A stretch of 33,248 bases of DNA from an uncultured Burkholderiales bacterium (GTDB lineage: Bacteria; Pseudomonadota; Gammaproteobacteria; Burkholderiales; Burkholderiaceae_C): positions 1 through 33,248 of the forward strand of contig CAIVLE010000195.1 in assembly GCA_903906635.1 (NCBI GenBank), read 5' to 3'. The notes under the pieces are model-generated. The model had not been told where the DNA came from, searched no databases, and was given only the letters and a program-made list of their open reading frames with translations. Of this stretch, positions 20,635 to 26,445 are shown piece after piece (the stretch's first letter is position 1; the number at the start of each line of letters is the position of its first letter). The position numbers and the translations under genes are program-made.

Positions 20635-22776
20635 GTGACACAGCCCGCCCATTCGACCCCACCGTTTAGCTTCACCAGACTTGAAGACAACGCGTTGCTG
20701 CGCGGCCAAGCCTGCTTTGGACAAGACGTGGCGCTGCCCGGGGCTTGGCACATGGCCTTCGTACGCAGCCCGTATGCACATGCCAAATTGCTGCGCATCG
20801 ACCGACCAGAGCTTGCCAGCGAAGATAGGGTGACTGTCTTGACCGCTCAAGAGTTGGGCGAGCATCGCATGCCCCAGATCAACCCCTTGTTGCCTGTGTT
20901 GCATCAAGAAGATTTTTCGCTCCTAGCCACCCAAACCCTGACCTATGTGGGCCAACCTGTCGCAGTGGTGGTGGCGCCCACACGCGAGTTGGCGCAAACT
21001 GCGGCAGCTCAGGTGGTGCTGCACTGCGATCCCTTGCCTGCTCGCACCGACCACGACACGCGCACAGGCAGTGACCTGCCTGTGACCACGCGCACCGTCC
21101 ACCGCCATGGCGTGTTGCCCCTGTGCAGCGCCCACGTGGCACAGGTTCAGTTGGTCTCTCCCCGCGTGACGGCCATGAGCATGGAGCCACGTGCGTGCAG
21201 CGCGCAGTGGCATGAACACGATAACGACAAGGAGTGCCGCATCACCGTTTGGCTGGGTACCCAAACGCCCTCGCGAGCGCGCGCCGACATCGCACAAGCC
21301 CTGGGTCTGCCTCACGCCCAGGTCCGCTTGATCAGCCCTGATGTGGGAGGCGCTTTTGGAGCCAAGGCTTCGGTCAGCCCCGAGGACATGCTCACCGCCT
21401 TGGTGGCGCAGCATCTCAAAGCGAGCGTGCGTTGGACAGCCACACGCTCTGAGGAGTTCACCGCTGGCATGCAAGGTCGGGGCTCGACCATGCAAGGGCG
21501 TTTGCAGCTCGATGTACAAGGCCACTTCACAGGGTTGGCCGCTGAGCTCAGGTTTGCCTTAGGGGCTTGGCTGCCGTTCTCGGCAGTGGTACCTCTGCGT
21601 AATGCCGCCCGCATCTTGCCCGGTCCCTACAGAACGATGGCGCTTGATGTCACGGGCTATGCCACCCAAGCGCATGCAGCGCCCGTCAATATTTACCGCG
21701 GCGCAGGTCGCCCTGAGGCCGCATTGCTGATGGAAACCTTGGTGGAGCAAGCAGCGCGTTTGGCTGGCATGGACCCGGTGGCGCTGCGTCTCAAGAACCT
21801 GATTGCTGCCGACCAAATGCCCTACGCCACCGCCAGTGGCGAGTTGCTGGACTCGGGTGACTTCGCAGCCTTGCTGCGCCAAGCCTGCGACAAGTTTGGC
21901 TACAACCACGAACGCCAACAACAAGCCGAGCGCCGTGCACGCGGTGAGTGGGTTGGCATTGGGCTGGCCTTGTATGTGGAGCCGTGTGGTCAAGGCTTTG
22001 AGTCGGCCCGTGTGACCTTGCTGGCCGATGGTCGCGTCATCGTGGCCAGTGGCGCACCGGCACAAGGCCAAGGACATGCCACCACCTTTGCACAAATTGC
22101 CGCTCAAGCCATGTCATGCGATGCGTCGCAGGTCACGGTGTTGATGGGAGACACCGAGCACTGCCCAAACGGCACGGGTGCCTTGGCCAGCCGCAGCACC
22201 GCCATTGGGGGCAGCGCCATTTTGCAAGCGTGCCGCACAGCCTTGGCTTTACGCGATGGCGGTGCGCCTTACCCCATCGTGGTGGATGACACCTTCACCA
22301 GCGACGAAGCCTGGAGCAGCGGCTGCGTGATTGCCCGTTTGTCCATCGACCCCGACACCGGCCAGCCCACCATCGAGCGACTGGTGTGGGCCGATGACGC
22401 GGGCCACATCGTCAACCCCACCTTGGCACATGGCCAACTCATCGGTGGCGCCGCGCAGGGCTTGGGCCAAGCCATGATGGAGCGCTTGGTCTACGACCGC
22501 CAAGGCCAGCTTGTCACGGGCTCGCTGATGGACTACGCCGTGCCGCGCGCCGACAACATGCCAGCGATCGAGATCACCTCGATGCACACCCCCAGCCCCA
22601 ACAACCTGTTGGGTGCCAAGGGTGTGGGTGAAGCCGGGTGCATCGGCGTGCCTGGCGCATTGATGAATGCCGCACGCGACGCGCTCTCGCCCTTGGGCGA
22701 GTGCGAGTTGAATTTCCCCCTCACGTCAGAACAACTCTGGCGTGTCATGCAAACACGTTTCGACAAGGACCTGTGA
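20635..22776 (+). CDS. Molybdenum hydroxylase (xanthine dehydrogenase family) large subunit
   Basis: This subunit binds the molybdopterin cofactor and hydroxylates the substrate. It is recognised by FTRLEDNALLRGQACFGQDV (N-terminal domain), DVGGAFGAKASVSPED, the cofactor loop YRGAGRPEAALLMETL, GQGHATTFAQIAAQ, and the catalytic Glu666 in GAKGVGEAG. At 713 residues it is short. Between SAILQACRTALALRDGG and VDDTFTSDEAWSSG, where relatives have some 60-80 residues, there are only a few, yet the frame is intact. The GTG at 20635 is proposed as start; a TTG at 20596 would overlap the palindrome. Partner subunits are at 23818 and 24320. The substrate is unknown; such enzymes usually attack electron-poor N-heteroaromatic carbons or aldehydes. 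Confidence 0.85.
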   Translation: MTQPAHSTPPFSFTRLEDNALLRGQACFGQDVALPGAWHMAFVRSPYAHAKLLRIDRPELASEDRVTVLTAQELGEHRMPQINPLLPVLHQEDFSLLATQTLTYVGQPVAVVVAPTRELAQTAAAQVVLHCDPLPARTDHDTRTGSDLPVTTRTVHRHGVLPLCSAHVAQVQLVSPRVTAMSMEPRACSAQWHEHDNDKECRITVWLGTQTPSRARADIAQALGLPHAQVRLISPDVGGAFGAKASVSPEDMLTALVAQHLKASVRWTATRSEEFTAGMQGRGSTMQGRLQLDVQGHFTGLAAELRFALGAWLPFSAVVPLRNAARILPGPYRTMALDVTGYATQAHAAPVNIYRGAGRPEAALLMETLVEQAARLAGMDPVALRLKNLIAADQMPYATASGELLDSGDFAALLRQACDKFGYNHERQQQAERRARGEWVGIGLALYVEPCGQGFESARVTLLADGRVIVASGAPAQGQGHATTFAQIAAQAMSCDASQVTVLMGDTEHCPNGTGALASRSTAIGGSAILQACRTALALRDGGAPYPIVVDDTFTSDEAWSSGCVIARLSIDPDTGQPTIERLVWADDAGHIVNPTLAHGQLIGGAAQGLGQAMMERLVYDRQGQLVTGSLMDYAVPRADNMPAIEITSMHTPSPNNLLGAKGVGEAGCIGVPGALMNAARDALSPLGECELNFPLTSEQLWRVMQTRFDKDL

Positions 22777-23756
22777 TGAAGTACACCAAATCTCAAGCCA
22801 AAGCTTATGCACGCCAACACATGGTGGGCGTATGGGCAGCCAACCTGACGCCGTTTGATGCCAAAGGACAACTCGACGAACAAGCCTACCGAGAGAACCT
22901 GCGCCACTGGATCAATGATTTGCAACTCGGCGGTCTGTTCATTGCGGGCAAGCAAGGTGAGTTTTTCTCGATGAGCCTGGACGAACGCAAAGCCCTGATT
23001 CGTATTTCGGTAGAAGAGGCCGCCAAGGCCGGCGATCGGGGCGGCATAGGCCACTGCGGCATTGTCACCTCGTGCTCGGACACCAACCTTGATGTGGTGT
23101 TGGAGCTGGGCCGCTACTCGCAAGAGGTGGGCGCCGACTACGTCATCGTGCACAGCCCGGTGTTGCACTTTGGCGCGCACACGGATGAGACCATTTACGA
23201 GTATTACCGTCATCTGACCGAGCAACTCGACATTGGTTTGGCTATGTGGAACCACCCCGACTGCGGCTATGTCATGAGCCCCGAGTTGTGCAACCGCATT
23301 GCCGACTTGCCCAGTGTGGTGGCCATCAAGTACAGCACCGACCGAGCGGCCTACATCCGGCTCACCGAGTTGGCGGGCCACAAAATCCACGTCAGCAACC
23401 CCGACGAAGAAGACTGGCTCGACAACATCATCGAGTTGGGCTGGAAGCTCTACCTGTGCTCCACCCCACCTTTTTTGCTGCAGACCCGGGTGGACCAGCG
23501 CATGAACGAATACACCCGCTTGGCGTTTGCGGGCAAGTACGAGCAAGCCCGTCAAGTACGAGACAGCCTCGAGCCCGTGCGTCAAGCCATTCGCCGCTCC
23601 AAACCCAAGGGCAAGCCCCAGGCGCACAGCAAATACTGGCAAGACCTGCTGGGTCAACACGGCGGTTTGGTTCGCCGACCCTTGTTGCAATTGACCGACG
23701 CCGAGCGCGAGGCCACACGCGTGGCCTTTGCGGAATCGGGGTTACGCCTGAAGTAA
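22776..23756 (+). CDS. Dihydrodipicolinate synthase-family lyase/aldolase
   Basis: The 326-residue TIM-barrel protein resembles class I aldolases/dehydratases of the DapA/NAL group. The Schiff-base lysine is K185 in VVAIKYSTD. The DapA loop GTTGES is replaced by GKQGEF, and the tyrosine that normally sits in YNVP is replaced by Trp in MWNHPDCGY, so the proton relay differs and it is not DapA. The C-terminal region beyond about residue 265 is longer than in DapA, as in hydratase-aldolases of aromatic degradation. It overlaps the hydroxylase large-subunit stop (ATGA) and separates it from the other subunit genes, so it is certainly part of the same pathway. Reaction unknown; cleavage or dehydration of a ring-opened 2-oxo acid is a reasonable guess. 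Confidence 0.82.
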   Translation: MKYTKSQAKAYARQHMVGVWAANLTPFDAKGQLDEQAYRENLRHWINDLQLGGLFIAGKQGEFFSMSLDERKALIRISVEEAAKAGDRGGIGHCGIVTSCSDTNLDVVLELGRYSQEVGADYVIVHSPVLHFGAHTDETIYEYYRHLTEQLDIGLAMWNHPDCGYVMSPELCNRIADLPSVVAIKYSTDRAAYIRLTELAGHKIHVSNPDEEDWLDNIIELGWKLYLCSTPPFLLQTRVDQRMNEYTRLAFAGKYEQARQVRDSLEPVRQAIRRSKPKGKPQAHSKYWQDLLGQHGGLVRRPLLQLTDAEREATRVAFAESGLRLK

Positions 23757-23817
23757 CTTATTCCTTAAGAAACCCAGCGCCAAGACCTTCGTCTTTACCT
23801 TTGCCATCACCTTCTCC

Positions 23818-25825: not shown

Positions 25826-25830
25826 GCACC

Positions 25831-26445
25831 ATGTCTTTCACGCCTTCATTCAAGAACCCTCCGTCGCCAACTCTCTACAGCGCGCCACTGAACTTCAACC
25901 GCTGGGTCGATGACCATGCGCACCAGCTCAAACCTCCCGTAGGCAACCAACAGATTTGGAAAAACTCTGACCTGATTTGCACTGTGGTGGGGGGGCCCAA
26001 CCAACGCACCGACTTTCATGTGGACCCATTTGAAGAATACTTTCACCAATTCAAGGGCAATGCCTCGGTGTTGATTGCCGACCGCGGCAAGATCGAGCGC
26101 GTCCACTTGCGCGAAGGCGATGTGTTCTTGCTGCCCGCTTTCGTGCGTCATTCCCCACAACGGCCCGAAGCAGGCAGCTTGTGCACCGTGATTGAGCGCA
26201 ACCGCCCAGTAGGCGAGATCGACGTGTTTGAGTGGTACTGCGCCCAATGCGGGCACTTGGTGGCCAGCCGTGAGTTGCAACTGCAAAGCATTGTGGAAGA
26301 CCTGCCCAAGGCGTTTGCCTCTTTCTACGACACCAGCGATGTTGAGCGTACCTGCTCATCGTGCGGCACGGTGCACAGCGGACGCGACTGGCAAACTTGG
26401 CACCAAATTTGCGGGCGTAGTTTCGTGAAAACCCTGATGCCATAA
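25831..26445 (+). CDS. nbaC: 3-hydroxyanthranilate 3,4-dioxygenase
   Basis: This iron(II) cupin opens the ring of 3-hydroxyanthranilate to 2-amino-3-carboxymuconate semialdehyde. The 204-residue product keeps every active-site residue of the Cupriavidus enzyme at a constant offset: Fe ligands His63, Glu69 and His107, substrate-binding Arg59 and Arg111, and Glu122. The rubredoxin-like second metal site is also present (Cys137, Cys140, Cys175, Cys178). It has about 12 extra residues at each end (C-terminal [18 protein letters not shown]). It is the last gene of the molybdenum-hydroxylase module, 5 bp after the FAD-CoxG gene. No kynureninase, kynurenine monooxygenase or aminocarboxymuconate decarboxylase is seen in the window, so the source of substrate is unclear. 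Confidence 0.92.

Follow-up and report, generated by a model that had tools for sequence, protein, structure and literature searches.

The stretch of DNA analysed here (the window) comprises 33,248 nucleotides of contig CAIVLE010000195.1, from assembly GCA_903906635.1 of an uncultured Burkholderiales bacterium. It contains a module of five genes, at 20596-26445, that encode the three subunits of a molybdenum (Mo) hydroxylase, a lyase of the DHDPS family and a 3-hydroxyanthranilate 3,4-dioxygenase (3HAO), and whose possible role in the breakdown of 3-hydroxyanthranilate (3HAA) is the subject of this work. An earlier note on this DNA had described the five genes as tightly packed, and we confirm that all of them are present, closely spaced and on the + strand (Table 1). 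It had also called the module uncharacterised; indeed, neither the module nor the pathway that we propose for it was found described among the matches listed from the open-licence PubMed Central literature.

Table 1. Genes of the module and its surroundings (window positions, except for the last row)
Feature	Position	Strand	Remarks
Aminobenzoyl-CoA/salicylyl-CoA-type operon	11181..18975	+	upstream of the module, separate
LysR-type regulator	19588..20514	-	divergent from the operon; Pfam HTH_1, LysR_substrate
Mo hydroxylase large subunit, xanthine dehydrogenase/CoxL type	20596 (TTG) or 20635 (GTG) to 22776	+	
DHDPS-family lyase, distinct clade	22776..23756	+	ATG at 22776 overlaps the stop of the Mo large subunit
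[2Fe-2S] subunit of the Mo enzyme	23818..24306	+	Pfam Fer2, Fer2_2
FAD subunit fused to CoxG domain	24320..25825	+	Pfam FAD_binding_5, COXG
3HAO	25831..26445	+	C-terminal CxxC pairs
ABC transporter substrate-binding protein	26506..27678	+	Pfam Peripla_BP_6; near the module in relatives too
ABC permease, branched-chain amino acid type	27683..28648	+	BPD_transp_2
ABC permease, branched-chain amino acid type	28645..29643	+	BPD_transp_2
ABC ATPase	29568..30407	+	ABC_tran; start overlaps preceding gene, may be later
ABC ATPase, LivF/UrtE type	30404..31120	+	
Alpha/beta hydrolase (BD-FAE/Abhydrolase_3)	31113..31973	+	
Cluster on contig C118 of the window genome	L178:290-5033		IclR regulator, thiamine pyrophosphate (TPP) enzyme (PRK07064), aspartate dehydrogenase (AspDH)-like gene and aldehyde dehydrogenase in a row

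The dioxygenase had been credited with a full set of 3HAO active-site residues, and this is borne out by comparison with the Cupriavidus metallidurans enzyme (1yfu), with which its residues 15-185 align (E 8.5e-73). Among the 16 positions compared, the 10 functional ones, which we take to be the iron ligands, the substrate Arg/Arg/Glu and the cysteines of the two CxxC pairs, are identical, and those at 1yfu 38 and 50 differ. The protein also exceeds both NCBIfam equivalog cut-offs for this enzyme (PRK13264, 247.5 versus 220 bits; TIGR03037, 230.7 versus 146 bits). From the equivalog match and the conserved residues we infer that it has the activity of a normal, genuine-looking 3HAO. This enzyme is usually seen as part of the kynurenine pathway or of NAD synthesis, its product going to ACMSD or to quinolinate, and 3HAA is a waste product of tryptophan.

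Neither the Mo large subunit nor the lyase reaches the cut-off of any NCBIfam model that it matched. The best matches of the Mo enzyme are glyceraldehyde dehydrogenase subunits, and it scores far under the CO dehydrogenase equivalogs (326.6 versus 991 and 434 versus 950 bits). Its large subunit carries YRGAGRPE at residue 367 and GVGE at residue 676, the glutamate of the latter being presumably a hallmark of the superfamily, and lacks the CSFR motif that we take to mark the CO dehydrogenase active site. With its Mo-pterin domains, its FeS and FAD subunits and the GVGE motif, the enzyme follows the plan of the Mo aldehyde/xanthine oxidoreductase superfamily. At eight other loci (L101, L111, L123, L029, L064, L066, L082 and L093) a large-subunit gene stands beside the lyase gene and no FeS or FAD subunit gene was found in the stretch.

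The lyase matches the Pfam DHDPS family with 100.2 bits, falls short of the DapA equivalog (73.3 versus 206 bits) and has its best NCBIfam match in KdgD (75.6 versus 374 bits). It retains the Schiff-base-type lysine, which is invariant in 15 and in 55 aligned sequences, and displays the motifs GKQGEFFSMS and WNHPDCGY. KQ replaces the TT pair of DHDPS and Trp replaces its Tyr, constantly in the relatives aligned; we take the replaced Tyr/Thr residues to be catalytic in DHDPS. An AlphaFold model of the lyase (mean pLDDT 93.7) has the DHDPS fold, and the 50 Foldseek matches listed are DHDPS-family entries (TM 0.76-0.81 by query length, 16-24% identity) that do not narrow the reaction. Judging by its residues and scores, the DHDPS-family protein of the module is not DapA.

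The genes are strongly conserved together in other genomes, and the prospect raised by the earlier note that they might never be so falls away. In a sample of the family, a DHDPS-like gene was found in 15 of 299 genomes, the window's included, and 14 of 14 relatives have the Mo large subunit, the DHDPS-like gene and 3HAO at one locus, an arrangement that is therefore not due to chance. Of the 467 relatives that a scan of GTDB genome contigs yielded, we kept the best 80, mostly from Burkholderiales and Alphaproteobacteria; most of these 80 carry 3HAO and many an AspDH-like gene, and among named relatives Limnohabitans and other Comamonadaceae come closest. Among 398 Pseudomonadota genomes (window's counted), a DHDPS-like gene occurs in 10, 3HAO in 26 and ACMSD in 9. 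All 10 genomes with the DHDPS-like gene have 3HAO (hypergeometric p 2e-13), as do all 9 with ACMSD, and in no case do the DHDPS-like gene and ACMSD occur together (p 0.004). Seven of the 26 3HAO genomes have neither. The same ACMSD query, whose nearest solved structure is ACMSD itself, matched none of the 24 module genomes, the window's included; three classical queries were confirmed against solved structures.

Conservation was also assessed locus by locus. We gathered 119 loci, 7 of them classical, without a DHDPS-like gene, and 112 with the module; once 10 duplicates were dropped, 102 unique module loci were left, 67 of which are flanked by 7 kb or more on each side. 3HAO is present in 60 of these well-flanked loci. 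Among the seven loci without it, six genomes were tested and all six have 3HAO elsewhere, and at the seventh, in Phaeobacter pGal_C110, the gene lies at the edge of the stretch. ACMSD, aminomuconate deaminase, AMSDH, the two FAH-type genes, DmpG and acetaldehyde dehydrogenase are each found in 0 of the 67 module loci and in 4 to 7 of the 7 classical ones. The window genome also lacks kynureninase and ACMSD, and the earlier note was right that the usual kynurenine and 2-nitrobenzoate partners are missing. Sixteen plasmid regions, examined by choice and not at random from 47 lyase-matching and mostly from 77 3HAO-matching records, are of the same two kinds. Seven are classical and carry, with varying completeness, 3HAO, ACMSD, RidA, AMSDH, FAH-type genes and DmpG; nine are of the module kind, with 3HAO, DHDPS-like and AspDH-like genes plus either the Mo enzyme or an NAD aldehyde dehydrogenase.

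In a tree of 3HAO, the betaproteobacterial module enzymes group with the classical betaproteobacterial ones (support 100/98; 29 module and 6 classical rows), and the module label requires at least two changes. Eight of the rows (L137, L142, L143, L149, L171, L174, L175 and L176) were fetched apart from the module locus and were counted as module type on the ground that the module is present in their genome; L137 and L170 are the same gene, and a long-branch warning applies to L161, L077 and L146. This grouping argues that one kind of dioxygenase serves two lower pathways, and that the lower pathway seems to be the part exchanged.

The oxidoreductase of the module varies too. Elsewhere, as in Ensifer and Phaeobacter, an NAD aldehyde dehydrogenase stands in place of the Mo enzyme, sometimes with kynureninase. 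Taking as close any dehydrogenase with at least 63% identity to that of Ensifer, 34 module genomes divide into 24 with the Mo enzyme beside the lyase, 8 with a close dehydrogenase and 2 with neither; none has both. The same is seen in the 67 well-flanked loci (Mo enzyme 51, aldehyde dehydrogenase 12, both 0, neither 4), and two of the four genomes whose locus has neither possess a close dehydrogenase elsewhere (68 and 71%; L073 and L099). The module dehydrogenase scores best, below cut-off, with the NCBIfam succinate-semialdehyde dehydrogenase. Its comparison with AMSDH covers two Arg positions only, to which we presume functional roles in AMSDH; one is kept and the other is Ser. Because the Mo enzyme and the NAD aldehyde dehydrogenase stand in for one another, and the 3HAO product 2-amino-3-carboxymuconate semialdehyde (ACMS) is an aldehyde, aldehyde oxidation would be their shared job. 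On the strength of this replacement, we consider it likely that one or the other oxidises the aldehyde of ACMS.

Of the 24 module genomes, 21 encode a kynureninase that scores above cut-off, and in 6 of these 21 it lies about 8-35 kb from the module. It is found in 6 of the 102 unique module loci, and in Ensifer, Roseateles XES5 and Phaeobacter it is a neighbour of the module. Together, the replacement of the Mo enzyme (24 genomes, 8 and 0 for both, with 2 having neither) and the kynureninase neighbours point to oxidation of the aldehyde product of the dioxygenase rather than to hydroxylation of an N-heterocycle, and the quinolinate or quinoline-type starting compound suggested by the earlier note finds no support. 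In the Roseateles/Paucibacter group (L182, L183 and L184) the distance between kynureninase and the module is about 15-21 kb. The surroundings there include a RidA gene (in L182 with 49% identity to the deaminase of the classical pathway), another gene of the DHDPS family and alpha/beta hydrolase, VOC-fold and ABC transporter genes, family checks covering part of the listed genes at each locus.

A further partner is the AspDH-like gene, present in 51 of the 67 well-flanked module loci. The four such genes scanned all exceed the cut-off of the PRK13303 subfamily, three of them with Asp_DH_C. In the relatives L040, L041, L042 and L046 the gene is slightly downstream of the transporter, on the opposite strand, and the window genome has one outside the module. 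The presence of this partner suggests that iminosuccinate or oxaloacetate and malonate semialdehyde are the products of the module.

Taken as a whole, we think it probable that the module constitutes an ACMSD-independent lower pathway for 3HAA, that is, that 3HAA is its substrate, that ACMSD is bypassed and that the Mo enzyme acts on the ring-cleavage product. The conservation of the module and the mutual replacement of its oxidoreductases are seen in the genome counts themselves; the chemistry that they suggest would run as follows. After import, here probably by the adjacent ABC transporter, 3HAA would be opened by 3HAO to ACMS, which the Mo enzyme would oxidise to 2-amino-3-carboxymuconate before it closes spontaneously to quinolinate; in other bacteria this oxidation would fall to the NAD-dependent aldehyde dehydrogenase. 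We assume that CoxG perhaps links the Mo enzyme to the quinone pool. The lysine-dependent DHDPS-like lyase would then hydrate and cleave the product (C7H7NO6 + H2O -> iminosuccinate, or oxaloacetate + NH3, + malonate semialdehyde), and the AspDH-like enzyme would turn the C4 product into aspartate. Such products would explain both why AspDH is a partner and why the loci lack the later classical genes. The C4 + C3 cleavage, to which the fold, the partner gene and the mass balance point, is put forward tentatively, at somewhat less than even chances. We are similarly reserved about the complete scheme for freshwater, marine and soil Pseudomonadota, in which ACMS would be oxidised without decarboxylation and split by a new DHDPS-superfamily hydratase-lyase, and the nitrogen of the ring would be regained in the form of aspartate.

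Several observations weigh against this scheme. With the usual catalytic Tyr/Thr of DHDPS replaced, the reaction of the lyase cannot be read from its family. The AspDH of the window genome lies on another contig, in the IclR-TPP enzyme-aldehyde dehydrogenase cluster, and may serve something else; the near relatives L031 and L034 show no AspDH in the stretch examined. The split between Mo enzyme and dehydrogenase rests on identity and adjacency: 6 of the 8 genomes assigned to the dehydrogenase also hold Mo paralogues (35-44%), 4 of the 24 assigned to the Mo enzyme also hold dehydrogenase paralogues (48-51%), and in one of the 2 genomes out of 34 with neither enzyme (L092) a dehydrogenase of 51% and a Mo paralogue of 38% lie side by side. 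Furthermore, FeS and FAD genes are nearby in none of the 19 alphaproteobacterial Mo-type loci and in none of 6 others. Neither the window genome nor its congener G260 has kynureninase to supply 3HAA, and NadA was not found in the window genome (92% complete) or in G260, leaving room for a role in NAD supply. The 102 loci comprise the best matches of one query together with two genome samples and the chosen plasmids, and since loci as well as genomes are related, the p values make them look more independent than they are. Finally, in the module genome G687, outside the loci counted above, 3HAO adjoins a RidA that shares 70% identity with the aminomuconate deaminase of the classical pathway (L180:7067-8097), and no amidohydrolase was noticed among the open frames of 17 kb around it, no search of that genome having been made.

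The same genes could be read in other ways. The lyase might replace ACMSD outright and decarboxylate ACMS, or the oxidised form of ACMS, by way of a Schiff base; 2-aminomuconate would then be made by the Mo enzyme or dehydrogenase, and genes elsewhere would provide the classical chemistry. The exclusion of ACMSD from module genomes would fit this, as would the KdgD match of the lyase, far under its cut-off though it is: KdgD is a dehydratase-decarboxylase, and the C3 carboxylate is beta to an imine, which suits lysine-catalysed decarboxylation. We nevertheless judge it unlikely, since the genes that follow 2-aminomuconate (RidA, the FAH-type decarboxylase and hydratase, DmpG) were found in 0 of 67 loci in a locus-level search, and the AspDH-like partner would go unexplained. 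The order of steps could also be reversed, with the lyase acting first on ACMS to give iminosuccinate and malondialdehyde and the Mo enzyme or dehydrogenase oxidising the C3 aldehyde. Genes and mass balance would be the same, and the below-cut-off match of the dehydrogenase to succinate-semialdehyde dehydrogenase would agree with it. However, ACMS cyclises spontaneously, as stated in PMC10143591, and would be left open to this reaction. The C3 product would moreover need two oxidations where one oxidoreductase is conserved, and we hold this order to be very improbable.

Equally remote is the reading of the module as a route for degrading an N-heteroaromatic compound, with quinolinate or a quinoline hydroxylated by the Mo enzyme. 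Hydroxylation of N-heterocycles does occur in the family of that enzyme, the PDB matches of the large subunit include quinoline 2-oxidoreductase, and 6-hydroxyquinolinate is the lactam of 2-amino-3-carboxymuconate; but the NAD aldehyde dehydrogenase that replaces the Mo enzyme would not hydroxylate a pyridine, and the kynureninase neighbours also speak against it. That 3HAO makes quinolinate for NAD synthesis, with AspDH as a second NAD-related enzyme, appears hardly credible. NadA is indeed not found in 10 and below cut-off in 1 of the 24 module genomes, the window's being among these 11, but it is above cut-off in the other 13, NAD synthesis offers no obvious task for the oxidoreductase, the lyase, the transporters or LysR, and a window genome without kynureninase fits poorly. 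We rejected the degradation of homarine (Ruegeria pomeroyi being among the matches) and that of dipicolinate, neither of which has a literature link to these genes among the matches listed, the kynureninase neighbours pointing elsewhere. NahE-like cleavage of a bicyclic ring-cleavage product, with a Mo arylaldehyde oxidase feeding anthranilate to the CoA operon upstream, was likewise discarded because most module loci have no such operon (a ligase-like gene in 9 of 67, a monooxygenase/reductase-like gene in 4 of 67).

The classical 3HAA/2-nitrobenzoate (kynurenine) meta-cleavage pathway consists of 3HAO, ACMSD, AMSDH, a RidA deaminase, oxalocrotonate decarboxylase, a hydratase and an aldolase. 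The proposed ACMSD-independent pathway would share with it the kind of dioxygenase, the presumed substrate and the oxidation of the ring-cleavage aldehyde. In contrast, ACMSD and the later genes are absent from all 67 module loci; in their place stand the DHDPS-like lyase, the Mo enzyme or a succinate-semialdehyde-dehydrogenase-type dehydrogenase, and often AspDH. As in the protocatechuate 4,5-cleavage pathway (LigC-LigI-LigJ-LigK), the semialdehyde would be oxidised with its side carboxylate kept, and hydration and aldol cleavage would then yield a C4 oxoacid; unlike there, the intermediate would bear nitrogen and the aldolase would be of the lysine type and not metal dependent. No homologues of that pathway were noticed at the module, no search for them having been made. 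The lyase shares its fold and its Schiff-base-type lysine with the NahE/PhdJ hydratase-aldolases and KdgD, members of the DHDPS superfamily that perform hydration/aldol or dehydration/decarboxylation reactions in catabolism, whereas in its clade the TT pair is replaced by KQ and the catalytic Tyr by W. The Mo enzyme has the subunit plan of Form II CoxL and of the glyceraldehyde dehydrogenase-type Mo enzymes, but it is below the cut-offs of the latter, is tied to 3HAO and has CoxG fused to its FAD subunit. If correct, the proposed pathway would represent a second catabolic fate for ACMS besides decarboxylation, would give a function to a Mo enzyme clade usually labelled xanthine or CO dehydrogenase and to a so far unassigned DHDPS-like family, and would suggest how Limnohabitans, Acidovorax, Roseateles and Roseobacters make use of aminobenzoates derived from tryptophan.

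In the window, the operon extends past the five genes, through the branched-chain-type ABC transporter (26506-31120), presumed to import the substrate of the module, and the alpha/beta hydrolase, to end at 31973. This hydrolase is 38-39% identical to those adjoining the module in L111, L121 and L123, and a gene related to the LysR regulator is close to the module in many relatives. The CoA-dependent anthranilate operon that the earlier note had placed next door is a real operon of the aminobenzoyl-CoA/salicylyl-CoA type, and anthranilate, rather than salicylate, would be its substrate by inference. Its first gene (11181-13505) scores 1353 against a cut-off of 1078 with a model named salicylyl-CoA 5-hydroxylase/oxidoreductase, and is followed by SDR, MarR, enoyl-CoA hydratase, acyl-CoA dehydrogenase, benzoate-CoA-ligase-type and RidA genes. 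Its linkage to the module recurs in several genera and in both orientations, and suggests a common diet of aminobenzoates rather than a single pathway. In Variovorax paradoxus, a gene like that at 11181-13505, a fumarylacetoacetase-like gene (identified by eye), a carbon-nitrogen hydrolase and an Amdase-family gene lie upstream of the module (L102:725-7013). Upstream of another module (L064:1279-7375), a Rieske oxygenase and a Gfo/Idh-type oxidoreductase are reminiscent of phthalate-type clusters. Lastly, between the housekeeping genes and the CoA operon, the window encodes a Stealth-type protein (4891-6042) and a virginiamycin-B-lyase-like protein (7843-9096).

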